The position numbers and the translations under genes were made by a program. Positions 40,344-59,790 of a stretch of 64,000 nucleotides of DNA are shown here, piece by piece. Each line of letters starts with the position of its first letter. Positions within the stretch are counted from its first letter, which is position 1. A model generated the notes under the pieces. The model was not told the origin of the DNA and searched no databases. It worked only from the letters and a program-made list of their open reading frames with translations. This stretch comes from Isoetes taiwanensis (lineage: Eukaryota; Streptophyta; Lycopodiopsida; Isoetales; Isoetaceae), in assembly GCA_021234155.1 (NCBI GenBank), contig JAJEKV010000014.1, forward strand, positions 13,938,494 through 14,002,493. The letters run 5' to 3'.

Positions 40344-41856
40344 TGTTGACCCTCAACCTGGCTTTAAAGGTCAACCACAATAAGCCAACTTGAGTTGGAA
40401 CCCAATTTGGGGTTAGGACCTCCAGATCACATAAGGTGATCAGTCTTTGCAAGACAAATCGAGCTAAGAATCCAAAAACTCAAAGTTTCATACCTTTCCC
40501 ATTTCTAGAAAATGGGACCTTGACTCAAATTGGTATAGCAGTTGATAATGGATTGGGTCTTTGGGTCAGATGCTTTTAACTGACACAAAACAGTTATATG
40601 AATCCAATGGTGTGGTCCCTGACCAAGTCAGATCATAATCCTGAGAGATATTCAAGCTTAAAGTGGGGTAAAAAATTGGTCAATAGAGGTCAAACTGGAA
40701 AGCAATGATCAGAAAAAAGGATCTAGAGTTTCTGACTACTTTTTTGAAAATTTTCAAAGCCAATGTGTGACAAGGGTAGTAAAGAATGGAGGCATGAGAT
40801 CAAATCTCCATTTAAATGCTCAGAGGTAATTTTTTGCACTCAGATTTGACAAAATACAGTCAAGAACAGTCAAAGCAGAATGCAAGATTTTCTAACTTGA
40901 GTTGTGGATGATATTTTTTTATTTTCTCAAAGCATATAGGTCTTAGATATATCAAGAATTGATGGCAACTGGATCAAAAGCAATTGGAAGCATAGGGGAA
41001 TTTACTGTAGGATTTTTTGAAAGACAAAATTGTTAAGAATCATATCAGAGACAACTTTTTCAACTTGGCAATAAATTTTCATTGATGTGGGGATAAATAA
41101 ATCGCAATAGTAATGAATAGTGGTGTTTCAACACCTCAGATGCTGGAGGATATCAATCACAGGTCATAAAATAATTTTAGAAGATAATATCAATCAAATC
41201 TTTGCAAATCTGATCGAGGAGTGCTCAAGGACTTCAAGAATCCTTCAAATCATGCTTAGCATTGGTCAATGTCGGATTTGAGCGCTTCTGGACCTTCAAA
41301 AAAGTATTTTTTGTCGAATCCCCTGTATATAGCTTAGTTTTCAAATGATTTCTCAATCTTAGCCTTAATTTATGGGTTCATTTGATTCCTAGAGGGCGGG
41401 AGGATAGGAATAGGTAGGTTGCGAGGTTAATGGAGCCAAATCCGGCATGATTCGAGCTAGAAACTCAGTTTTTAGGGTTCTCGACCATATTTTTCGTGAA
41501 AATGGCGCGATACGGTTCCCGTATTTTTGAGGGTATATCCCCAGAATATGCTGTATTTTGGCATTTTAGAAATTCTCGAGCATGGTTTTAAAGATCTTTC
41601 TAAAAATAATCAAGGAATCCTTGGAGACTTTTGAGACCATGGGAATTTTACACACTTGGGAGGGAATCATAGAATATTCTAGGGCCTCTTTAGGTCTTAA
41701 CGTGGGGATATCACATGGGGACACGTGTATACATGAGAGCTCATAGAAAAAATGGGATATGAACCATGTGGAAATGGAAGAACTATGAAGCAATGGTAAG
41801 GATGAAAAATGGGGTTAAGGATATTTGCAAGAAAAAGGAGTAATGATAAAGCCAAC
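40344..41856 (-). repeat. 5' LTR of the outer gypsy element, first part
   Basis: Matches 30204-31702 nearly base for base, with about 15 extra bases near 40947-40961 (atatcaagaattg). Broken at ccaac by the chromovirus. It resumes at 55392. Confidence 0.93.
41852..41856. repeat. Target site duplication CCAAC of the chromovirus, left copy
   Basis: ccaac is repeated at 55387-55391, immediately after the other end of the chromovirus. The intact LTR at 31697 has it once. Confidence 0.93.
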
Positions 41857-43562
41857 TGTGATGCTCCCTGAATATATACGACCCCCGGCCGTATACATAC
41901 GGGGACTTTCCCCTCCCATGGCGACCATATCGCCACGAGCAGGGCCCTCCGTCTATCCCGGGCCATCTATAGAGAGATGCCCGAGTGAAGGACACGGAGA
42001 TGTCATTCGGCCCACGCCTTCAGTGGGACTCCTACGTCGCGGAAGCGTGAATACATGTTAGCACACAGCATAAATCATATATAAATAACCACCACGAAGG
42101 GTGGCGCATCCATCCAAATACCAACGGCAAAGAATATGCATCTAAACTAAGAAAACACCCCAAACCCCAGGTTCTACCCCCTGTTGAGACTCACAGTGAG
42201 GATAGGACGGCGGCTCGGCCTCAAGAGATCGCCAGACAGAGGTATAACCCGGCGTTGGCTGGCATAGAACATCGGCTAGGGTTGTCCACGCCATCCGCCC
42301 CTCCGCCTGCACACTTTGCGGATGGGTCGATTCACGCTATGGCCGCTATAGCCTTCCTGGAGACGCAGGGCTCGAGGTATCACCCTGAGCCTACTCCGGG
42401 TTCATGATGCCCCGGTCCGATGAGGCGGGTCGTGGAAGCGCCCCTTCCGGGGATCGCCCAGGGTTCCATGGGTGAGCTAGAGAGAATACGTGCCGCGCCA
42501 GCGACCCCCTCATTCATGCCCGACTTACTCACCCTAAATCTACTCAAAGTGCAAGATGCTCCATACGGATCACACCTTTACACCCGTGGGGTGTCGGACC
42601 CATACCCGGCCCTCACGTGACCCAGCTATCGCCTAGCCCCACCGTAGGAGTCTCGGGAGCCTTTTATGTTGGGTGCAAGACCCCACCCCCACTTCACCAC
42701 TGCGTCCCTTCTTTGGTGGTAAGCCAATCCATAGCATCTATGACCCGGTGGTCCCTTGTACACATGCCGCATCTAGTGGGATAATACAGGCCTCTATCTA
42801 GGAGCATACTACAATACATGGGCTCAGAGGTCTCTACCCCCCCGTAATCCCCCCCATTCCAAGAGTACTACTATGCAAAGAACTATCAATCCATCCTTTA
42901 AGAGCAAGATCAGAATCAGAAATAAAGAGAACTCACCTTTACAATCAAGGGTTAGTTCCTACAAGTAAACATAGAGAGAACAGAGAAACAAACACAACCA
43001 GTGCCCAACAGGGGCGCTACCCTAGAATTCACAAACTATCCTAGCCACCCACCTGAGTTCTGGCTGGACCCGTTACCATTGGGTGCTTCCATCTCCTGGG
43101 TCTTGGTGTTCAACTTCAGCTACACAGGTAAAAGTGCTTGGTATGGTGGCGCTCAGCTTGGCAGAGGTAGGCGCTCTGCTCCTGCTCCTTTTGGACGAAT
43201 TTTGGGAGTCAATTAGGGATAGGGATCAGGTTGACAGCCCAATTTGGAAGTCCCCATGCTGACCAATCGATTTAGGCCAGGTGGCGCCTTCCCAAAGCAT
43301 TAATTAATCTAATTGACCCATTTAATACCTTAATTCCCTAAATTATAGGTTATTATCTTTAATGATTTAATTAGCATAGCTAATTAAATCCCTTTTAGGT
43401 CAATCCCCTAGGTTACAATACCCCATGGTGGCGTACCTTTAGTGGTTGACGTGTCGGTATATTTATACGTATACCGTATAAATACGTTACTGGTGGCGTA
43501 CCTTTAGTGGTTGACGTGTCGGTATACGTTACGTATACCGTATAAATACATGGAACATCACA
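41857..43562 (-). repeat. 3' LTR of the chromovirus
   Basis: Starts tgtgatgctccctgaata and ends tacatggaacatcaca. It contains a local repeat of ggtggcgtacctttagtggt near 43430-43480 and 43490-43530 close to its right end. No gene is present. Confidence 0.93.
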
Positions 43563-44001: not shown

Positions 44002-44646
44002 CTATAGTTTGCAATTCATTGTGGCATAAGGAATGGTCAAGTTCCCATTATAGCCGAGATGAATGCAGCCTATCAACTGTATGCTTTCCAAGCAAATCGC
44101 GGTCATGTCAACATCAACAATACACCACGTCCTAGAGAACATGAAGGTGATCTCATCATCGGTAACTATTATTAGATACGATGCATCTACCCCTCTACTG
44201 CATGATTCGCGGCGAATCAAGCTTTCAAGCTTACCGCCAGGAGCGGGGTTGATAGCATCGTTGATGGTGCGGCCCTGAGATTCCCGCATGAAGTCCGGAT
44301 AGTGCTTGTCAAGGTCTATCTTCATCACCCAGGTAGCATCCTCAACTGGTAAGTGCTTCCACTTAACCAAGTATTGCAACATTTGAGTCCTTCTGGTTTG
44401 TTTATAAGCTCGATCAAGGAGAGCTTCAGGCACTATCTCCAGCTGCTCCTCTGTCATTTCTAGGAGGGTTGGGGTATCCAAAACCTCCTCTGGATCAGGG
44501 GTCTGTTGTTTCAGAAGACTCACGTGAAAGACCTTGTGGATCTTCAAGCGGGGTGGCAAATCCAAGCGATATGCCTGTTCTCCAAAGACGTTCAATAATC
44601 TTGAACGGCCCAGCCCATCCGGGTGCCAACTTCTTGCGATTACCAA
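44002..44646 (-). pseudogene. Chromovirus integrase end with chromodomain
   Basis: Residues about 20-48 are the integrase C-terminal region (AYRLDLPPRLKIHKVFHVSL). Residues about 69-119 are a chromodomain: EIVPEALLDRAYKQTRRTQM, QYLVKWKHLPVEDATW, HYPDF. The Trp of the aromatic cage is present, but the first aromatic position is Val, as in the group II type of plant chromoviruses by family knowledge. Chromodomains of this kind direct integration to marked chromatin. The frame joins integrase only through frame changes between 44646 and 44740. A tail of about 95 residues after the chromodomain is unusually long and may be read-through into non-coding sequence. Confidence 0.88.
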
Positions 44647-45848: not shown

Positions 45849-47990
45849 TTGCTTCCCAAACTCACTGGTGAGTGTGGAAATTGCGTTACAATGGGTTCGG
45901 GTTATCAAAGGATGGCGTGACAATGCATCCGCAACCACATTGTGCTTCCCAGGCTTATACATAATCTCGAAATCATACTCTTCCAGAAATTCCATCCATC
46001 TTCTCTGACGGAGGTTGAGATTGGGCTGGGTGGATAAATAACGAAGACTCTGATGATCCGTATCCAGCTGAAATCTTCTACCAAGAAGGTAGTGTCTCCC
46101 CCTGCTAACAATTCCTGATCATGGGTAGGGTATCGCTGCTCCGTCTCATTCATTTTCTTTGAATCATAGGCAATAACCCTCCCCTCCTGCATTAGGACTC
46201 CACCGGTAGCAATCTTACTAGCATCCGTTGCCACTAGTTTGTCCTTTTCAGGATCGGGCAAAGTGAGGACTGGTGCTGACGTTAAAGCATCCTTGAGCTT
46301 CTGGAAGCCTACCTGGACTTTTGTTTTCCAATGTTCCATCCAATCCTTCACCTTCTCGTGCTTTGTGAGATCAGTAAGAGGTGCGGCAATTGTTGAAAAA
46401 TCCTTAACAAACTTCCGATAATATCCTGCTAGTCCCAAGAAACTCCGGACTTCCAAAACATTACCCGGAATAGGCCAATCCCTTACTGCTTCTATCTTTG
46501 TTGGATCCGTAGCAATTTCCTCTGCTGAAATGATATGCCCCAAATAATCCACCTTGGGAGTCGCAAACTTGCACTTAGAGAACTTGGCAAAGAGCTGATG
46601 GCGTCTTAGCTTTTGTAGGGCCAACCTAAGATGTTGCTCATGCTCCTTCAAAGTTTTACTATAGATGAGAATGTCGTCGAAGAAAATAACAACAAAATCA
46701 TCCAAGTATTGGCGGAAGACGTCATTCATCAACCGCATGAAAGTTGCAGGAGCATTAGTTAATCCAAAAGGCATAACGGTAAACTCATAATGGCCATATC
46801 TAGTGCAAAAAGCAGATTTATGGATGTACTCCTCCTTTATCCTTATCTGATGGTATCCGGAGCGTAAATCAATCTTTGAGAAATATTTGGCCCCTTGCAA
46901 CTGGTCCATTAGATCATCTGCCCTAGGCAAAGCGTACCGATTCTTGATGGTATGCTTATTGAGCTGCCTATAATCAATACACATCCTCAAGGAGCCATCC
47001 TTTTTCTTAACAAAAAGGATAGGGGCGCCAAAAGGCGAAACACTAGGCCGAATGAAACCTAGGTTTAGTAACTCTTGAAGTTGCTTCTTAAGCTCTGCCA
47101 ACTCTGGAGGACTCATACGGTACGGGGCCTTACTGGTAGGCTTAGTACCTGGTTCTAGAGCTATCTCACATTCTACCCCACTAAAAGGAGGAAGCTTCTG
47201 GATCTCATCTGGAAAAAGATCGCTAAATTCTCGGAGAAGGTTAGCAATCCCTTCCGGCAAAGTGTCAATTACTTGCTTCTGCTTAGCATCTGACTCAATA
47301 GAGGCAAGTCTAATGACGCAAAGGAGCTTTTCCTTGCGTAACACTTTTTCTAACTGCGCAATAGACATAGACTGCATAATAGGGTTGAATGGATCACCTT
47401 TAATAGTCACGCGTGCTCCATTAGCGGCGTTGAAGGTAACCTCCCGTTTCTCGCAGTCTATATTGGCTTTTGCAGATGCTAAAAATTCCATACCCACAAT
47501 AAGATCATATTTGCCAATGTCCATTAACTCGGCACCCAAGGCAACTGGTGCACCTGGCAACTGCATCTTAAGGTTAATGCGGCGGCCATGAGTGTATCTG
47601 ATCTTACCACTGGCTAACGTGACTGGCTTTGGTCGGGATCTCAACGTTTCAAGCTGCAATACCTGGGCCATTCTAGGAGAAGCAAAATTATGTGTACTAC
47701 CCGTATCCATCAAAATTATGAAAGGCTTACTGTCTACTTGGCCTATGGTGGAAATAACAGAAGGCTGACTTTCAGCATTGCCGGTTTCTATAGCTGCAAG
47801 GATATGAGACGCACCGTGAATATACTCGGGAGCGTCCTCCTCGGCAGGTAGTGTTGACTCAAGATCGTCCCAATCGAGGTCAGCCATAGCCAGCTGGGCA
47901 GTTTGCGTGACATAAGGGCAATTCTGCATAAAGTGCCCGGGTCGCATACACCTGTAGCATGCCTTATCTCGGCGGAGCTGTTCTCGGGCC
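45849..47990 (-). pseudogene. Chromovirus pol: zinc knuckle, protease, RT, RNase H
   Basis: Upstream of 47947 the same frame reads [17 protein letters not shown], a CX2CX4HX4C knuckle that closes gag. The 680-codon open stretch has protease DTG ([16 protein letters not shown]81), then RT with [60 protein letters not shown] and the catalytic [12 protein letters not shown]. Next come [20 protein letters not shown] and RNase H ([20 protein letters not shown]). A frame change near 46120 moves the RNase H end to 45995-45849 ([29 protein letters not shown]). All catalytic residues I can check in PR and RT are present. Confidence 0.93.
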
Positions 47991-49094
47991 TCCTTAGGAA
48001 TAGACTGTAAGAGGTTCCGAACTTCCTTACCGACATTGTTCTGCTTTTCGGGCGTGCTGAAGGTGACTTTCTTTTCTTGGCGGCCATAAGAGTTCTGTTG
48101 AGAGGGCGCCGGACTTGGCGAGCGGGGTTTGTAAGGTGTGGAAGGCCGTGGCTGCGAGTAAGAAGCGGGCTGGATCTTCGGTTCCTTGGTGTGTCCTCCT
48201 CGAGGCTTAATGCCTTAGCCTCGCCTTCGCAAATCGATTTTGGGTCTATGGCCTTAACCATTCGTTTAATGGAGGGGGCCAACCCTTCAATGTAGCCCTC
48301 CACCGCCCTCTTTTCATTCATCCCTGGTACGTACAGCCTCAGGCGCATGAATTCATCAGTGTAGGCCTGAACTGACATCCCCTTCTGCTCTAACCTGTAG
48401 AAGGTTTGGATTTGTTGGCATTTGTGCGCACGAGGCACATAATGCGACTTAAAAGCCTTGGCGAACTTTTTGAACTTGCACTTGCTCCTATCCAGGTGCT
48501 TGGCTTTGGCATAGCCCTTCCACCAAATACGGGCAGCTCCTGTAAGGTTTGTGGTGGCAACCTTCCCTGTATCCTTTTCTGTCATTCCATAGGATTTCCC
48601 AAACTCCTTCATCTCGCCGAGCCGGGACTCTCGCATTCAGCCCACCTCTAGATTTGCCATCAAATTGGGCGGTTTCCTATTTTTCCATATCTTTGGTTAT
48701 GGTCAGATCAACCGTTTTACGGTACTCCTTGTCGCGGCGATGTGCATGGCCACCGGATGACACCGACGACTCAGAGGACTCAGAAGAAGCTGACTGGGAG
48801 GGGGTTGCACTGTCCCTAGAGGAGCCTCGATGACGTTTGGAACGGTGCCTCCTCAAGACGGGTGGGGTTGGACTTGACTTCTGAAAGTATACGTTGTGGT
48901 GGGGGACTTGGCGGTAACGGAGGTAACTCTGGTCCATCCTCCTGGGCATGCTGCGGTGGGTTGGTATTTAGCACATATGTCTGCAACTCAACTAGTTGCC
49001 GCTTCATCAACATAAGTTCCTGCTCAGGGGTTAACCTACTGGCATTCGAGGGTGTCTGCCAGGCGGCGTTGCGTGCACCGTCTATATTGAGCAT
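47991..49094 (-). pseudogene. Chromovirus gag
   Basis: A probable start is ATG at 49094 (MLNIDGARNAAWQTPSNASR), followed by TPEQELMLMKRQLVELQTYV and a Pro-rich stretch. Then, in other frames, there is a Ser-rich basic linker (SKRHRGSSRDSATPSQSASS) and the capsid domain at 48620-48230: TGAARIWWKGYAKAKHLDRS, FKKFAKAFKSHYVPRAHKCQ, QIQTFYRLEQKGMSVQAYTD, EFMRLRLYVPGMNEKRAVEG. These fit the retrotransposon gag family. Frame changes occur near 48830, 48650 and 48220. Confidence 0.85.
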
Positions 49095-49350: not shown

Positions 49351-49866
49351 CTAGGGGTTCGCGAAAGGGTACATGATGGAATAGCGAACGCTTTCACGTA
49401 CAGCTCTGACGAGCTTGTAACGTGCCCAGGCCTGGACGATGACAGGCTGGTAGTCCCATGTGGGGCTAATAATAAGGAGATTGAAAAGCCTCCCTAATGC
49501 ATAGAAGATTTACCATAAGTGGTCGTTGGCATCCTCGAAAGCTTCGTGCCTGGACATACTCCAATAGTCCCATGTGCGGCGAAGGGTCTGTTTCAGGTCG
49601 TCAAAGGCCCGTTCTCTGAGGATGTTAACTACCTCCATACCCTTGTCTGGATCATAAGGCTCTTCCGGCTCTTCGGGTTCATCCATCTCATAGTCATCCT
49701 CTCGTTCCGGGTACTCCCCATATCTTTGGCCGTAATCTTGTTCGGGAGGCCCTTGATCATCCCTTCTTATCTGGTCGGTGATCCTCTCTTCGTACTCCTC
49801 GAGTGTCTCTTCTGCAAGACGACAGGAGTAAATATATATACATTGAACAATTCTTCTACACTCCAA
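49351..49866 (-). pseudogene. Chromovirus extra ORF c, unknown, one in-frame stop
   Basis: 172 codons in one frame, interrupted by TAA at 49512-49510. The first part is very acidic (EETLEEYEERITDQIRRDDQ, PEREDDYEMDEPEEPEEPYD) and then helical (LRERAFDDLKQTLRRTWDYW). After the stop it continues without a break as IFYALGRLFNLLIISPTWDY and ARYKLVRAVRESVRYSIMYP to TAG at 49353-49351. The fact that both sides look coding argues that the stop is a mutation or a sequence error. Just before the acidic part, TTGCAG at about 49815 could be a splice acceptor. TWDY occurs on both sides of the stop. I do not recognise a family; a histone fold was looked for and not seen. Confidence 0.5.
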
Positions 49867-50056: not shown

Positions 50057-51465
50057 CTAAGAGGTCGACCCTTCAACATCTTGTGCTTGGGTGTCAAACT
50101 CAGGCTTTGGTCGATGCTGCAGGAGTAGCACACTAGGATTAACTGATGAGGCAGCTGATGAAGCTATCTCTGGAGGAACATTTGTAGCCAATGGCGCTGC
50201 AACCAGCAGACTCATGTTCATCCAAGAACCAATCTCATGGTCAAACACTGCAATGGCTAGATCACGATTCACAAGGATGACCTGCTCAAGGTTAGGAGCT
50301 AACTTCTTATGCCCGGCTGTGGTTGAAAGTGCCCTAAGTGCCCAAACAGCCGCCTCTGCTTCAGGTGCAATTGCCTTAGCAAAGAAGAGAACCTGTCTGC
50401 TTGTGAAAGCCGACAAGAAGAGGCGGGTAATATAGCATTTCAACCCCTGAACCATCGGATGGGTTGAAGAGGCCAACTCAGACTCCAAGTTTTGGGGCAG
50501 TTCCTCCTCCATGGCAAAATCCTGCTCCTCCTGAACATACTGGCTCTCATCACATAGATCCTCCATGGTTGGGTCATCCTCGATCTTGACGACGACATCG
50601 TTGATGTTGGGCACATGTGGCCCCGTAGCATGAAAAACCGATTCATGAATTGAGGACGAGGCACCCTGAATCACTAACTGGCGTAAGGATAATAGTGTGC
50701 TGATAGGCTCCACATCGAGAGGCTGATAGTTGAGCAGTTGGTGTATCTCCGGCACATAGACGGGACGAGAATAATCAATGAAGTCATGCTGACCCTGGCA
50801 ATACTCGGCCAGCTCATAGAGAAGGTGAGCCGTCTTTTGCTTGCCCTTATTGGCGATATGCTGATACGCCCATTGATGGCACTCAACAGCAAATAATCTT
50901 GATCCCCAACCTTGATGGTAGAAAGCGAACTTAAGCCGACAAGAGCTTGGCCCTTACTACGGGGTAGAGGCTTCTCTTTAACTAATTCCTTCCATCTTAC
51001 AAAGTCGGCATAGCTTATCTGCTCATCCTCCTCAGGATCTGGAGGAAGTGGGGACTTGGCTTGCTCTAAAGCCGTGTCAGTACCGTCAACATACCTGTCC
51101 ATAATAAGAGCAAGGGCAAACTGGGCCTCAAAGTATAGCCCATTAGAGCCACAGTCAATAATGGGGGCGTGCTTAGCACATCGGAGAATGCCCTTAAGAA
51201 TATCATAACTGTGGCGATCATCCCCAAACATGTGCTCTAAGATATCCCTGTGAAGATAGGGTTGAGGCGGCTCCCCGAAAAACTCTGCCTCGGGCAGGAT
51301 TTCCTCATCATAAAACTCTAGGAAGGTCGCATAGTCAGGGTGTGCGCGCATGTTGTCGATGAAGTCGACTGTACACTGCAACATGGGGTCCAAGAGAGGG
51401 TAGGGAACCTGAGGATCCCATTGCTCGCCTCCCATGTACCATGCTAGGCGCCCAGCGTAATCCAT
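50057..51465 (-). pseudogene. Chromovirus extra ORF b, about 470 residues, C-terminal H2A-like fold
   Basis: Two overlapping frames, 51465-50674 and 50755-50057. The first is protein-like up to about 50900, and the same protein goes on in the second frame (FAVECHQWAYQHIANKGKQK, LLYELAEYCQGQHDFIDYSR), so one frame change splits it. The N-terminal 350 residues have no family I recognise. Residues 103-198 of the second frame (nt 50449-50162) line up with histone H2A: GLKCYITR against GLQFPVGR, APEAEAAVWALRA against APVYLAAVLEYLA, and VNRDLAIAVFDHEIGSW against VPRHIQLAVRNDEELSK. The 41 residues from AP to AV have the same length as in H2A with about 12 identities by eye. A TGCAG just before the ATG at 51465 could be a splice acceptor. 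The H2A reading is a hypothesis. Confidence 0.55.
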
Positions 51466-51751: not shown

Positions 51752-52342
51752 TCATGGCCGTTCCCCACGGATCCGGCGTGCTAGCTGAAGGTCTTTTGTC
51801 ATGATCGTCACTCGCTTGGCATGGATTGCACATAGATTTGCATCGCCAAAGAGGGCCACCAAATATGCCTCGGCTGCCTCCTGGAGTGCTAGAATGGCAT
51901 GAGTCTGAAACCGGAGATCCGTTTTAAATTCCTGAGCAATCTCTCGGACCAGATGCTGGAAGGGAAGTTTCCGTAGCAAAAACTCAGTGGATTTCTGATA
52001 CTTCCTTATTTCCCTAAGTGCCACGGTGCCAGGCTTGTAACGATGCCTCCTCTTAGGCTGGGGTAGAGCTCCAGGAATAGTTTTCCCTGCGGTCCTTGGA
52101 TGCCGGGCCTTTCGGATGATCTCATCTCGCCGATTGTCCCCTGCAGCCTTAGCGATACTACCCCGAGCCTTGAGCTGGTCCTTATACTGGGCACCCGACT
52201 TACGGGGCGTCTTCTTCAGTTTTCGGTGAGGAACACGAACTTCTGAAGGTGGCTGCTCTTGCCGGTGCCTTTCTTCCTCTTCTTTCCTCAGCCGCTCCTT
52301 TACGGCCTCTGTTACCCTCGTTAAGCCCTCAGTGCGCTTCAT
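51752..52342 (-). CDS. Histone H3-like protein carried by the chromovirus
   Basis: Uninterrupted, 196 residues. Residues 100-196 are a full H3 core from [20 protein letters not shown] to the end IRGERP, in step with canonical H3 residues 39-135 without gaps. By eye 82 of 97 positions match canonical plant/animal H3 (recalled, not searched). [40 protein letters not shown] and [19 protein letters not shown] are visible. Loop 1 has canonical length, so it is not a centromeric CenH3 type. The N-terminal tail is 99 residues instead of 38: a charged helical stretch ([17 protein letters not shown]), then a basic part with [11 protein letters not shown] at 47-57 that recalls the ARKSTGG...KQL region of H3. 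No intron. It lies between the 5' LTR and gag on the coding strand, both LTRs flanking it, so it belongs to the element. It may be the C-terminal end of a larger protein starting at 53098. Confidence 0.93.
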
Positions 52343-52702: not shown

Positions 52703-53098
52703 TCATCCGATGCCCCTAGCCATTTGTAGGTCCGCCTCTTGGGCCATTTGCAGGCTGTTTTGGGCCTGCGTTTGTAAGGCCTCTTCTTCAGCTTGTTCAT
52801 CCCCTCCTGGCGGAAAGAACCGTGCATACTTCTGGACACCATCTTCCTGTTCAACCACAATGCAGGTCTCCCGGATGGCGTTGAGCTTAAATACAAAACG
52901 CTCATTATAGCAGAAGAGCGGGTATGGTATTCTGACTCCTTCGTAGAAACGTTTAACAAAATATTCCAGTATCTCCTCAGTTTTTGCCTCCGCTTCTGGC
53001 GATGGGTTTTGTCGTGGCAGCAGTTCGGCCATTAAAAACTCTATGGGAGTTTGAGAATGACGGGGCTTGCGCTTGTATACTTGCTTGACTGCCTCCAT
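52703..53098 (-). CDS. Chromovirus extra ORF a, unknown, faint H2B-like pattern
   Basis: 131 codons from ATG at 53098, about 585 bp inside the primer site. Residues about 17-55 (TPIEFLMAELLPRQNPSPEA, KTEEILEYFVKRFYEG) have the hydrophobic spacing of the H2B helix pair (IFKVLKQVHP..., IMNSFINDIFE), and CYNER follows where H2B has RYNKK. Identity is too low to assert homology. The C-terminal part is Glu/Gln-rich (DEQAEEEALQTQAQNSLQMA). The frame is closed by a stop, and coding-like sequence continues in another frame. It could equally be an unrelated element-specific domain. Confidence 0.5.
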   Translation of the reverse strand: MEAVKQVYKRKPRHSQTPIEFLMAELLPRQNPSPEAEAKTEEILEYFVKRFYEGVRIPYPLFCYNERFVFKLNAIRETCIVVEQEDGVQKYARFFPPGGDEQAEEEALQTQAQNSLQMAQEADLQMARGIG

Positions 53099-53682: not shown

Positions 53683-53700
53683 GAACCATGCTCGATACCA
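53683..53700 (-). other. Primer binding site of the chromovirus, initiator tRNA-Met type
   Basis: The minus strand just inside the 5' LTR reads TGGTATCGAGCATGGTTC. The usual plant site is TGGTATCAGAGC followed by similar sequence; one base of the CAG is missing here. Confidence 0.8.
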
Positions 53701-53701
53701 T

Positions 53702-55386
53702 CGCGGACGCTCCCCTGAATATATACGCCCCCGGCCGTATACATACGAGGACTTTCCCTCCCATGGCGACCATATCGCCAAGGCGAAGCGGCCCTCCGGT
53801 CTATCCCGGCCATCTATAGAGAGATGCCCAGTGAAGGACACCGAAAGAGGTGTCATTCGCCCACGCCTTCAGTGGGACTCCTACGTCGCGGAAGCGTAAA
53901 TACATGTTAGCACACAGCATAAATCATATATAAATAACCACCACAAAGGGTGGCGCATCCATCCAAATACCAACGGCAAAGAATATGCATCTAAACTAAG
54001 AAAACACCCCAAACCCCAGGTTCTACCCCTTCCGGACTCTGTGAGGATAGGCCCCATGGCTCGGCCTCAAGAGATCAGCGAGACGAGGTATAACTTTGGC
54101 GTTAGGCTGGCATAGAACATCGGCTAGGGTTGTCCACTCCATCCGCCCCTCCTGTGCACACTTTGCAGATGGGTCGATTCACGCTATGGCTTCGCTATAG
54201 CCTTCCGGAGACGCAGGCTCGAGGTATCACCCTGCGGAGCCTACTCCAGGGTTCATGATGCCCCGGTCCGATGAGGCGGGTCGAAGCGTCCCCTTCCGGA
54301 TCCGCGGTGGTTCCATGGGTGAGCTAGAGAATACATGCCGCATCGGCTGACCCCGCATTCATACCCACTTACTCACCCTAAATCTACTCAAAGTGCAAGA
54401 TGCTCCATACGGATCACACCTCTACACCCGAGGGAGTGTCGGACCCATACCCGCCCCTCTACATGACCGCTATCCGGGCCTAGCCCCTTTGTAGGAGTCT
54501 CAGGGAGCCTTTTATGTTCGTGGCAAGACCCCACCCCCACTTCACCATCTGCGTCCCTTCTTTGGTGCTAAGCCAATCCATAGCATCTATGACCCGGTGG
54601 TCCCTTGTACACAGGCCGCATCTAGTGGGATAATACAGGCCTCTATCTAGGAGCATACTACAATACATGGGCTCAGAGGTCTCTACCCCCGTAATCCCCC
54701 CATTCCAAGAGTACATCGATCCATCCTTTAAGAGCAAGATCAGAATCGAAAATAAAGAGAACTCACCTTTACAATCAAGGGTTAGTTCCTACAAGTAAAC
54801 ATAGAGAGAACAGAGAAACAAACACAACCAGTGCCCAACAGGGGCGCTACCCTAGAATTCACAAACTATCCTAGCCACCCACCTGAGTTCTGGCTGGACC
54901 CGTTACCATTGGGTGCTTCCATCTCACGGGTCTTGGTGTTCAGCCTTGACTACACGTAAAAAGTGCTTGGTATGGTGGCGCCAGCTCGGCTTGGCGGTAG
55001 GCTCTGCTCCTGCTCCTTTTGGACGAATTTTGGGAGTCAATTAGGGATAGGGATCAGGTTGACAGCCCAATTTGGAAGTCCCCATGCTGGCCAATCGATT
55101 TAGGCCAGGTGGCGCCTTCCCAAAGCATTAATTAATCTAATTGACCCATTTAATACCTTAATTCCCTAAATTATAGGTTATTATCTTTAATGATTTAATT
55201 AGCATAATTAAATCCCTTTTAGGTCAACCCCCTAGGTTACAATACCCCATGGTGGCGTACCTTTAGTGGTTGACGTGTCGGTATATTTATACGTATACCA
55301 TATAAATACGTTACTGGTGGCGTACCTTTAGTGGTTGACGTGTCGGTATACGTTACGTATACCGTATAAATACATGGAACGTCACA
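53702..55386 (-). repeat. 5' LTR of the chromovirus
   Basis: Pairs with 41857-43562. The two differ by many one-to-four base indels and substitutions concentrated in GC-rich parts (for example 53830-53860 and 54030-54130), while their AT-rich parts are nearly identical. Its first bases (cgcggacgctccc) differ from the expected TGTGATG. Confidence 0.92.
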
Positions 55387-55789
55387 CCAACAATGGTATT
55401 TTATGGCCATGAAAATGTGGACTTCAATGGTTAAACAAAGGGTAAATGGGAATGAGATATGAGTATGGAAATGGGGGAGAGAAGAAGGCAAGATTTGGTG
55501 CCATGTATACAGGGGTCTTCCAAGCTCTTTAACTTCCAAACTTCAAAAGATGTCTTCCAAACTTCATAACCCAGATTCTTCTAGGGTATATTCTTGACTA
55601 AGCATTTGACCTCAAATAAAGTACCTCTTATGAACTTTAAGCACTTGTTGACCTAGAAGGTAAGCATCCTTTGATCTCCACATCAATATTGACTACCAGG
55701 CTCTTCCAAACTTTGACCTAGTCTTCCAAAATGATTAACCTAGTTTAATGCATTGACCACAGTTAGTATGTTGCCCTTTGGGGGCAACA
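55387..55789 (-). repeat. 5' LTR of the outer gypsy element, second part
   Basis: Begins with the second CCAAC, then continues the LTR (tattttatggccatgaaaat) to ggggcaaca at 55789. Matches 31703-32101. Confidence 0.93.
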
Positions 55790-57149: not shown

Positions 57150-57695
57150 ACATTTGCACGAAACAAGGAGAATAGCATCTGTCCAGGAACAAGCTTCATT
57201 GTCCAGGAACAAGCTTGTAGCTATTGCATCAATTCGCACGGGGTCCCACAGGCTACGGATTGAGACAGGTAGATGGGAGCGGCCGCAATTGCCGCGAGAA
57301 GCGAGGCTATGTGCCTGTTGCCAGTTACAGGTTATTGAAGATGAAAGCCATACTCTTCTGAGTTGCCCTGCTTTTGAGATAGTCCGGAATCATTTTTTGA
57401 CCTTAGCATTCCATTCCACGCTTCCACAACTTCTCAGAGCACCATCTGTGCATGACTTGGCATTATACATACTTGAGGTTCTAGATAAATATCTGCAATT
57501 ACTGAGCCCTCAGTAGTCATTATCTCTGCTTATCTAGTATCATCATTACTGCAAAGGTTTTTCCCTTGAAAACCTTCCGAGGCAGGGGTTTTTTAATCCT
57601 AGTAGTAATGATTGTACTAGCCCATTGTATGGGTCCCATGACCTATTGGTCTCCGTGGACGTTAAAAAAACTATTCTATTCTATTCTATTGTTTA
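57150..57695 (+). mobile_element. LINE 3' end with (TATTC)n tail
   Basis: 57154-57516 encodes RIETGRWERPQLPREARLCA and CCQLQVIEDESHTLLSCPAF, the C-terminal CxxC...HxxxxC block of the microsatellite-tail LINE family, ending YLQLLSPQ. The 3' end has gacctattggtctccgtgga, cgttaaaaaaa and then (TATTC)n. gtccaggaacaagctt occurs twice (57180 and 57201). Strongly 5'-truncated. Confidence 0.88.
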
Positions 57696-58785: not shown

Positions 58786-59790
58786 TGGTGGAGCTTTGCC
58801 TACTTGGAATGACTTGGAGCAGGTCCAGAAAGCCTTCTTAGTATGAGCACTAGGGGTGAAGTCCACAGTCCCATATCAAATTCTACTGCAGGAGACAGGA
58901 TTCTTGCCTCTTCAGAGGGCGGCCCTTGAACGCCACATTGTCTATCTTTAGAAGGTGGTCAATATGGACGATGCTCGTCTTTCTAAACTAGCTTATATCA
59001 TGGCAATGGAGCCGCAGCGCCTCAAGGCCTGCTGGAGGGAAAAGAGAGCTCAATGGTTGGCTAGATGGAATGTGCAGGAGCACAGGTGCATACATGTACA
59101 AACAGAGGCAGATCGCCATAGCTTGAGGCAATATCTTGATGCTTGCTTCCTCAGCAAGCTTTGGGATGCCAATGCCCTTGAACAGGTCAAGACAGCACAC
59201 TACCAGCGCCATATAAATCCCACATTGGAGCGAGGCCCGCAATGCTACTGCGTACCCACTTGCCCATGAAAAGGCGCGGAGACTCATTGCCTCCATTACG
59301 CCTGCGAGGGCACATCATCTTGAATTGAGGCGAGGCGGATGGATTGGTGAGCCACGCCCGGGGCGAGCTCATCAATCTTTGCCAAATGGGAGTCATTGAG
59401 GATGAATCTCATACCCTTCAAAGTTGCCCGGCATATGATCAAATTCGGACCATATCTTTGAGTTGATCAGGCCTGGCCAGCCGTTACATGTGACATTGAG
59501 CACAGCATCCGTACGGGTGCTGGGATCATATCTTCAGGAGGTTATGGACATGCGAGATCAGCTATGTCCTCGGGCACACACTTGACATGTATATATACAT
59601 TGATGTATACTTGTACAGTTTGACAGCATTCTTATTACTGCCACGGTTTTTCCCTCGAAAACCCTTCGGGGCGGGGGTTTTTTAACCCGGACAGTAATAA
59701 GTTTGCTGCGCTCCTTATGGGTCCCATAGGCCGATTGGCCTCAGTGGACGATAAAAAATCATTCTCATTCTCATTCTCATTCTTCAAAAA
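58786..59790 (+). mobile_element. 5'-truncated LINE with (CATTCT)n tail
   Basis: It encodes LEQVQKAFLV, VKSTVPYQILLQETGFLPLQ and RAALERHIVYL, then, from 58955, RLSKLAYIMAMEPQRLKACW, REKRAQWLARWNVQEHRCIH and FLSKLWDANALEQVKTAHYQ. Zinc-block remnants (GVIEDESHTLQSCPAYDQIR in another frame) follow near 59390-59450. It ends ataggccgattggcctcagt, ggacgataaaaaa, (CATTCT)n. Stops at several places make it inactive. Confidence 0.88.

Follow-up and report, generated by a model that had tools for sequence, protein, structure and literature searches.

A chromovirus lineage of Isoetes taiwanensis carries a histone H3 domain held under strong purifying selection

Why would a retrotransposon carry a histone? 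The question is raised by a 64,000-nucleotide stretch of the genome of the lycophyte Isoetes taiwanensis (assembly GCA_021234155.1, contig JAJEKV010000014.1, forward-strand positions 13,938,494 to 14,002,493; hereafter the window), in which a histone H3-like frame lies within a Ty3/gypsy element. A reading of these letters alone (the original prediction) had proposed an intact H3 gene carried by a chromovirus. The element occupies the minus strand, in the order 5' LTR, ORF1 with the H3 domain, ORF2, ORF3, gag, pol and 3' LTR, and its features in the window are the following:

53706..55386, minus strand: 5' LTR, 1681 bp, with the GTTGG target duplication ahead of it at 55387-55391
53690..53700, minus strand: primer-binding-site-like stretch TGGTATCGAGC, which we take to be of the iMet tRNA type
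52703..53098, minus strand: 5' part of ORF1 (orphan N-terminal domain), in frame for its first ~125 residues and out of frame thereafter
51752..52342, minus strand: 3' part of ORF1, 196 aa, made up of a charged linker and the histone H3 domain
51755..52048, minus strand: 98-residue H3 core, from the alpha-N helix through the histone fold to the C terminus
50674..51465, minus strand: 5' piece of ORF2
50057..50755, minus strand: 3' piece of ORF2, in another frame than the 5' piece
49510..49866, minus strand: ORF3 piece between ORF2 and gag, with no clear ATG
47788..48636, minus strand: gag (Ty3 capsid) piece, by Pfam match
45905..47947, minus strand: protease and reverse transcriptase/RNase H frame, by Ty3-type models
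44287..44433, minus strand: chromodomain (PF00385, 33.1 bits against a cut-off of 25.1), the surrounding frame broken
41857..43562, minus strand: 3' LTR, 1706 bp, with a purine tract before it and GTTGG after it at 41852-41856

The window copy shows the traits of a Ty3/gypsy element: paired LTRs, a 5-bp target duplication (GTTGG on both sides, which is CCAAC on the plus strand), a primer site and a purine tract, together with gag, protease, reverse transcriptase (RT) and RNase H matched by Ty3-type models. Integrase-like text was recognized downstream of RT/RNase H by eye in a three-frame reading rather than with a core model. SH3_Tf2-1, above its cut-off, and Chromo both match the end of this stretch, and the chromodomain lies downstream of it in the window copy, as is characteristic of chromoviruses. 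The LTR pair, the GTTGG on both sides and the Chromo domain above the Pfam cut-off confirm the chromovirus with LTRs and a CCAAC duplication that had been proposed, and the H3 frame (51752-52342) does lie between the 5' LTR (53706-55386) and gag (47788-48636). The K2P distance between the two LTRs, determined for the window copy only, is 0.071 over 1660 sites. A long GAA/AAG-type microsatellite is present at ~45.8 kb, in the broken RNase H-integrase stretch, and an 83-nt direct repeat, 76% alike, is found outside the element at 57536-57618 and 59625-59707.

The 196-aa frame (52342..51752) matches the Pfam family Histone (PF00125) at 2.6e-41. Its closest solved structures are H3 chains, the best of them an H3.3 chain (4.7e-52) to which the core aligns without a gap. 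The domain is a histone H3, with the complete fold, the alpha-N helix and an unbroken C terminus. Twelve cores of subfamily A, one of six ORF1 subfamilies (A to F), share 85.7-87.8% identity with a host H3.3-like gene, which agrees with the earlier estimate of a core in step with canonical H3 and about 85% alike; across the element cores, the identity to a host H3 is 80-89%. CenH3 is defined by a longer loop 1 and a divergent fold. The gapless alignment to H3.3 and the 80-89% identity to a host H3 led to the rejection of a CenH3 identity, and a CenH3 origin, which had been excluded beforehand, is not indicated.

The frame in the window is only the rear part of a longer gene. In full copies ORF1 has ~410-455 residues and is made of an orphan domain of ~200 residues, a charged stretch, which is probably coiled, a basic linker and, at the extreme C terminus, the H3 core of 98 residues. 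ORF1 measures 451 aa in loci L005 and L006, which coincide with L009 and L010. Across the 17 loci L009-L025 it spans 429-455 aa, except in L012 (372 aa), and in L026-L028 it has 408-415 aa. Compared with L010, the ORF1 of the window carries seven deletions and three insertions at 91.6% identity over 1342 bases, and because of these small indels its 196-aa frame is a remnant. What was proposed as an intact gene with a 99-residue tail is therefore the end of an indel-broken ORF1, which elsewhere begins at an upstream ATG and has 310-353 residues before the core. Nor is it the sole extra frame, since ORF2 (two pieces in the window) and ORF3 also precede gag. The lack of an intron, which had been noted beforehand, is uninformative, as the 15 host H3 genes among the matches listed also align in a single frame across all 136 residues.

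Whether the histone belongs to the element or to one insertion is answered by the other copies. The genome searched comprises 1,658,258,908 bases in 1110 contigs. The search with the window protein gave at least 150 matches, while canonical H3 found, among the matches listed, 15 host genes at 97-99% identity over all 136 residues and at least 135 further matches at 72-87%. Combined, the two lists contain at least 263 distinct element places. Subfamily F, in which ORF1 begins with MSRFKLT or MPRFKLT (L050, L051), is a further large H3 subfamily, and the search with its H3 gave at least 150 matches, none of them overlapping those listed for the window protein. A 26-base codon pattern for DANLCAIHA has 651 and 618 exact matches, together 1,269, and its reversed control has none. 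The pattern is specific to the element in that the eight host H3 genes read encode DTNLCAIHA; the number 1,269 is a count of exact matches and not of places inspected one by one. Some host H3 genes have a contig in common (C1025 holds four, C445 and C919 two each) and may be partly clustered.

The order LTR-ORF1(H3)-ORF2-ORF3-gag is found in five of the six ORF1 subfamilies; from subfamily C only ORF1 was fetched. In the ten-kb loci L009-L028, which represent subfamilies A, B, D and E, ORF2 lies downstream of the H3 and on its strand in 20/20, gag in 18/20 and protease-RT in 15/20; some of the loci stop before RT, and the ORF2 of L023 has only 35 residues. The subfamily F loci L050 and L051 contain ORF1, ORF2, ORF3 and the start of gag. 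Among the matches listed, ORF2 lies at most 2.5 kb downstream of 68 of 150 H3 matches, and H3 at most 3.5 kb upstream of 74 of 97 ORF2 matches. For the 104 gag matches listed, H3 or ORF2 lies upstream in 22 with the first H3 list, in 31 when the canonical-H3 list is added, and on the same strand in 42 with the F list in place of the canonical one; 62 have neither in the comparison with the F list, and the controls gave one H3 downstream and none on the opposite strand. Three gag loci without a listed H3 or ORF2 were read, and two of them hold an H3 of subfamily F. Locus L049 has gag and an ORF3 piece, with no H3 within ~4.5 kb. The many copies with the H3 at the same place in the element uphold the proposal that it is cargo, for which other copies had been named as the test, and a one-off insertion was rejected on the same ground.

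The histone core is also the most strongly constrained part of the element among those compared. In 13 copies of subfamily A, its dN/dS is 0.035 (95% codon bootstrap 0.017-0.062), compared with 0.16 for the N-terminal part of ORF1 (ORF1-N), 0.26 for ORF2, 0.37 for gag and 0.19 for protease-RT. A second alignment gave 0.031 for A (120 pairs), 0.057 for B (6), 0.060 for D (78) and 0.027 for E (6). In a separate comparison one E pair gave 0.149 at a dS of 0.15. All these are pairwise Nei-Gojobori values in which pairs share branches, measured in subfamilies A, B, D and E. Within the parts of A that were compared, stop codons are present in 0/13 copies for H3, 1/13 for ORF1-N, 5/13 for ORF2, 7/12 for gag and 4/9 for protease-RT. 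Loci L009-L028 were chosen for long open frames, a choice which itself removes stops. Loci L029-L048 were drawn from the low-identity end of the list; four of these 20 (L031, L032, L041 and L043) have no H3-bearing frame of 100 aa and were left out, and subfamily D, which comes mainly from this set, still has a dN/dS of 0.060. Purifying selection in the copies compared thus weighs more heavily on the H3 core than on the RT of the element. Its values of ~0.03-0.06, far from 1, meet the proposal that the H3 is maintained, for which dN/dS had been suggested as a test, and have led to the rejection of a pseudogene or passive cargo.

The tree of H3 cores was built from 35 of the 49 element cores with a usable frame (12/16 of A, 3/4 of B, 1/2 of C, 6/13 of D, 11/12 of E and two of F, one of them cut short) together with eight of the 15 host genes. 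In this tree a branch with 100/99 support divides host from element H3. The element cores share derived residues: T107A and I124L in 34/34 scored, G102A in 32/35 (F has E and one B copy T) and A135P in 32/34. The split and the shared derived residues point to a single capture of a host H3, and repeated capture from the host was rejected on account of the one split at 100/99. In this element a host gene has been captured and multiplied together with its carrier, which is transduplication, although the constraint on the H3 and its age exceed what passive transduplication comprises.

Within the element cores, those of B group with C at 100/99, and both are nested inside A. The N-terminal domains of B are near A at third positions; for L021-L022 the difference is 0.20 in the N-terminal part as opposed to 0.42 in the core. 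The H3 core seems to have been exchanged between elements within ORF1, giving B a C-like core and an A-like N terminus. The combination of a C-like core with an A-like N-terminal domain was noted in L022-L025 in comparison with L042 and L044.

A similar mobility, on a larger scale, may be read from the divergence along the element. Between A and D (one D copy), dS is 0.53 for protease-RT and 0.77 for gag, about what is seen within A (0.47 and 0.79). ORF1-N, H3 and ORF2, by contrast, approach saturation at synonymous sites (pS 0.77, 0.89 and 0.79). For B against D, dS is 0.38 for protease-RT and 0.36 for gag. In A against E (two E copies), ORF1 and ORF2 are saturated, and the backbone is also more diverged than in A against D (dS 0.77 for protease-RT and 1.20 for gag). 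The window LTR aligns in 18/20 loci at 77-89%, and the leader, which lies between LTR and ORF1, can be aligned in 17/17 A/B loci but in 0/3 D/E loci. The leader, ORF1 and ORF2 are therefore far more diverged between subfamilies than the LTRs and gag-pol. Because the divergence of LTR and gag-pol is low while the module is saturated or cannot be aligned, the leader-ORF1-ORF2 block looks older than, and shuffled over, a common LTR/gag-pol backbone; to judge from the divergence, the module was likely exchanged between elements.

ORF2 has 469 residues in full copies. ORF3 is a conserved frame of ~159 residues in 22 of the 23 loci examined (at 6666-7151 in L010); its conserved part lacks a clear ATG, and it may be a spliced exon. 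Neither residues 1-300 of ORF1 nor ORF2 have relatives at E<=0.001 among the candidates scored from 5.8 billion proteins, and searches of Pfam and PDB assigned ORF1-N and ORF2 to no known fold or family. ORF3, searched against Pfam only, has no match there. One pattern match to ORF2 in viral contigs is unconfirmed. Single-sequence structure models of the orphan frames have pLDDT values of 51 and 40. A piece of another retroelement, of copia type (SH3_retrovirus, RVT_2), is located at 112-1197 of L010, upstream of the copy in that locus.

The surfaces by which H3 is handled in the cell are mostly recognizable in the element H3. The alpha-2 site, which assembly chaperones recognize, is HAIL in 15/16 copies of A, 4/4 of B, 1/2 of C and 12/13 of D; one C copy has HAVL, and two copies are unmatched. 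It is FAIL in 12/12 E copies and also in the F copy L051, while the eight host H3 genes have SAVL, TAVL or HAVL. The PHRYRPG segment is largely kept.

The N terminus is different. The canonical tail ARTKQTARKSTGGK is missing from the element proteins, and only subfamily D starts with MARTKG. The linkers contain an ARKS-like motif in B and E and a TGGK- or TAGK-like motif in several subfamilies. None of nine shuffle tests (p 0.06-0.72) found a significant likeness between the pre-core region and the H3 tail, so that no clean argument can be made for lost silencing lysines. Among the eight D copies with a start, seven begin with MARTKGT and one with MARTKGI. In MARTKGT, five of the six residues after Met match H3, with a chance of ~1e-5 per trial, five subfamilies having been looked at. 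The other starts are mostly MA.TKS in E, M[SP]RFKLT in F and ME..KQV in most of A and B, and L042, the only C copy that has a start codon, shows no H3-like start. The D start may represent mimicry, or else what is left of the H3 N terminus after a large insertion into the tail.

To our knowledge, no chromovirus with a histone has been described. The Isoetes element resembles plant chromoviruses in its LTRs, 5-bp duplication, primer-site-like stretch, Ty3 capsid gag, protease, RT/RNase H and Chromo domain, and differs from them in the three extra frames before gag, the first of which ends in a full H3. Ogre/Tat-type Ty3/gypsy elements also have an extra ORF between the 5' LTR and gag, but they belong to another lineage and are not known to carry a histone. 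No report of a histone in any retroelement was found in the open-access literature searched, and the word “histone” is absent from the main texts of the I. taiwanensis (PMC8566536) and I. sinensis genome papers. As far as this literature goes, a histone in a retroelement is new, while histones of DNA viruses and an H3-like gene in one fungal DNA transposon are known.

For an H3 carried by a transposable element, the fungal gene is the nearest earlier case. According to the available passages of its description, a hAT DNA transposon of Pyrenophora tritici-repentis carries an H3-like gene (H3L) in 26 very similar copies, with ESTs; its authors read a recent expansion and raise the possibility of altered chromatin (PMC3538342). 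As in Isoetes, the element multiplies an H3-like ORF together with a further ORF of unknown function, but it is a DNA transposon, H3L is an ORF of its own, the 26 copies are nearly alike, and those passages contain no selection test. The Isoetes element is a retroelement with the H3 fused behind an orphan domain, present as more than 1,000 cassettes in several deeply diverged subfamilies under strong purifying selection.

Single H3 histones are also encoded by DNA viruses, among them a xenomavirus, the Dishui Lake phycodnavirus and a sylvanvirus. In the passages of a review on viral histones that were available, their folds are given as 73-87% identical to the H3 of a possible host, some have extensions of 35-68 residues, the alpha-2 site is SAIL or TAIL in three of them, and viral single histones are thought able to assemble with host histones (PMC9145170). 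They resemble the element H3 in being the only histone and, in some cases, in having an N-terminal extension. They differ in belonging to DNA viruses and in the length of the extension, which compares with 310-353 residues before the core in the element and ~38 in a canonical tail. The words “retrotransposon” and “retrovirus” do not occur in the main text of the review (PMC9145170).

Two further systems concern function. The bracovirus histone H4 (CpBV-H4) is incorporated into host nucleosomes, and its N-terminal tail changes expression (PMC5423620). It is likewise a histone of a selfish or symbiotic element, but it is H4 and not H3, and it is a wasp virulence gene outside any transposition cycle. 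VANC proteins of VANDAL transposons counter silencing, and related VANCs affect quite different sets of transposable elements. A VANC is not a histone, and the likeness to ORF1 would be one of function; the analogy is to the fast-diverging module on a common backbone in the Isoetes element.

The reading preferred here is that a chromovirus lineage captured and kept a host H3, and that ORF1 acts in host nucleosomes, with anti-silencing as the favoured role; this is given a probability of roughly 0.62. The lineage in Isoetes taiwanensis would have taken one host H3 gene long ago and retained it. The ORF1 protein would likely pair with host H4, be loaded by host H3 chaperones through the alpha-2 site HAIL/FAIL and enter nucleosomes, its large N-terminal part probably pointing outwards on the route that an ordinary H3 tail takes. 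That tail leaves the nucleosome between the gyres of DNA, immediately ahead of the PHRYRPG segment, and since this segment is largely kept, the large N-terminal part could sit outside an otherwise normal nucleosome. There, the ORF1 H3 may mark or loosen the chromatin of the element itself and so counter silencing, a favoured proposal in which specificity or an effector would come from the fast-evolving N-terminal domain and from ORF2.

A kept core behind a front that changes fast alongside ORF2 fits a protein whose back end is adapted to nucleosomes and whose front end is racing. Anti-silencing, likened to the VANC proteins and to bracovirus H4, is the favoured guess by analogy; the original prediction had named the element's cDNA, its insertion sites or a targeted host locus as places where such an H3 could act. 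A more specific version, in which the element's own H3 with its fast N-terminal domain replaces host H3 on element chromatin and blocks silencing, the exchangeable leader-ORF1-ORF2 modules being the front of an arms race, is put forward tentatively, as less likely than not. In subfamily D the protein may show readers of H3K4 a genuine H3 N terminus ahead of a foreign domain.

The main rival to anti-silencing is the steering of integration. Here the H3 part would be a targeting or import device, by which ORF1, together with the pre-integration complex or bound to chaperones and H4, would steer insertion, with the help of the chromodomain, towards chromatin of a particular state. This reading could account for a chromodomain within the same element, for the mostly retained H3 surfaces and chaperone site, and for the position of ORF1 upstream of gag, where it could be packaged, but ORF1 is a separate frame, unfused to gag or integrase, and the steering of integration is judged unlikely. 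The constraint on the H3 core would also be expected of a general chromatin poison, present in nucleosomes genome-wide and disturbing host silencing or expression without self-specificity. Bracovirus H4 is an example of a histone that joins nucleosomes and shifts host expression via its N-terminal tail (PMC5423620). A vertically inherited element, however, gains little from harming its host, and the high copy number argues weakly against a strong cost, which places the poison below the steering of integration in likelihood.

Even less probable is the use of the histone, in the manner of a nucleocapsid, for packaging the element's cDNA or RNA in particles and not in host chromatin. Such a role hardly needs an H3 fold held at a dN/dS of ~0.03, and scans of the element frames matched no further histone, although the C-terminal half is basic and the position before gag would allow co-expression. 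As for a captured host gene that hitch-hikes without function for the element, the capture itself has a precedent in the hAT transposon of Pyrenophora tritici-repentis, as described in the available passages (PMC3538342). Against it stand the same place in the five subfamilies read, the one origin, the dN/dS far under 1 and under that of RT, and the saturation between subfamilies, and this explanation is given almost no weight compared with a kept H3 that acts in nucleosomes.

In Isoetes taiwanensis the H3 cassettes of the element outnumber host H3 genes by ~80:1, taking the 1,269 pattern matches and the 15 host genes among the matches listed, and the abundance suggests that automated H3 counts in such genomes could be dominated by transposons. 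At the protein level the H3 part is slower than the element's own polymerase in the copies compared. With its core kept and its tail swapped for another domain, the element is a natural experiment on which parts of H3 can be replaced. It also allows a direct test of whether a mobile element edits nucleosomes to escape silencing or to choose its sites. An H3 present in more than 1,000 copies under strong selection suggests that the element builds or edits its own chromatin.
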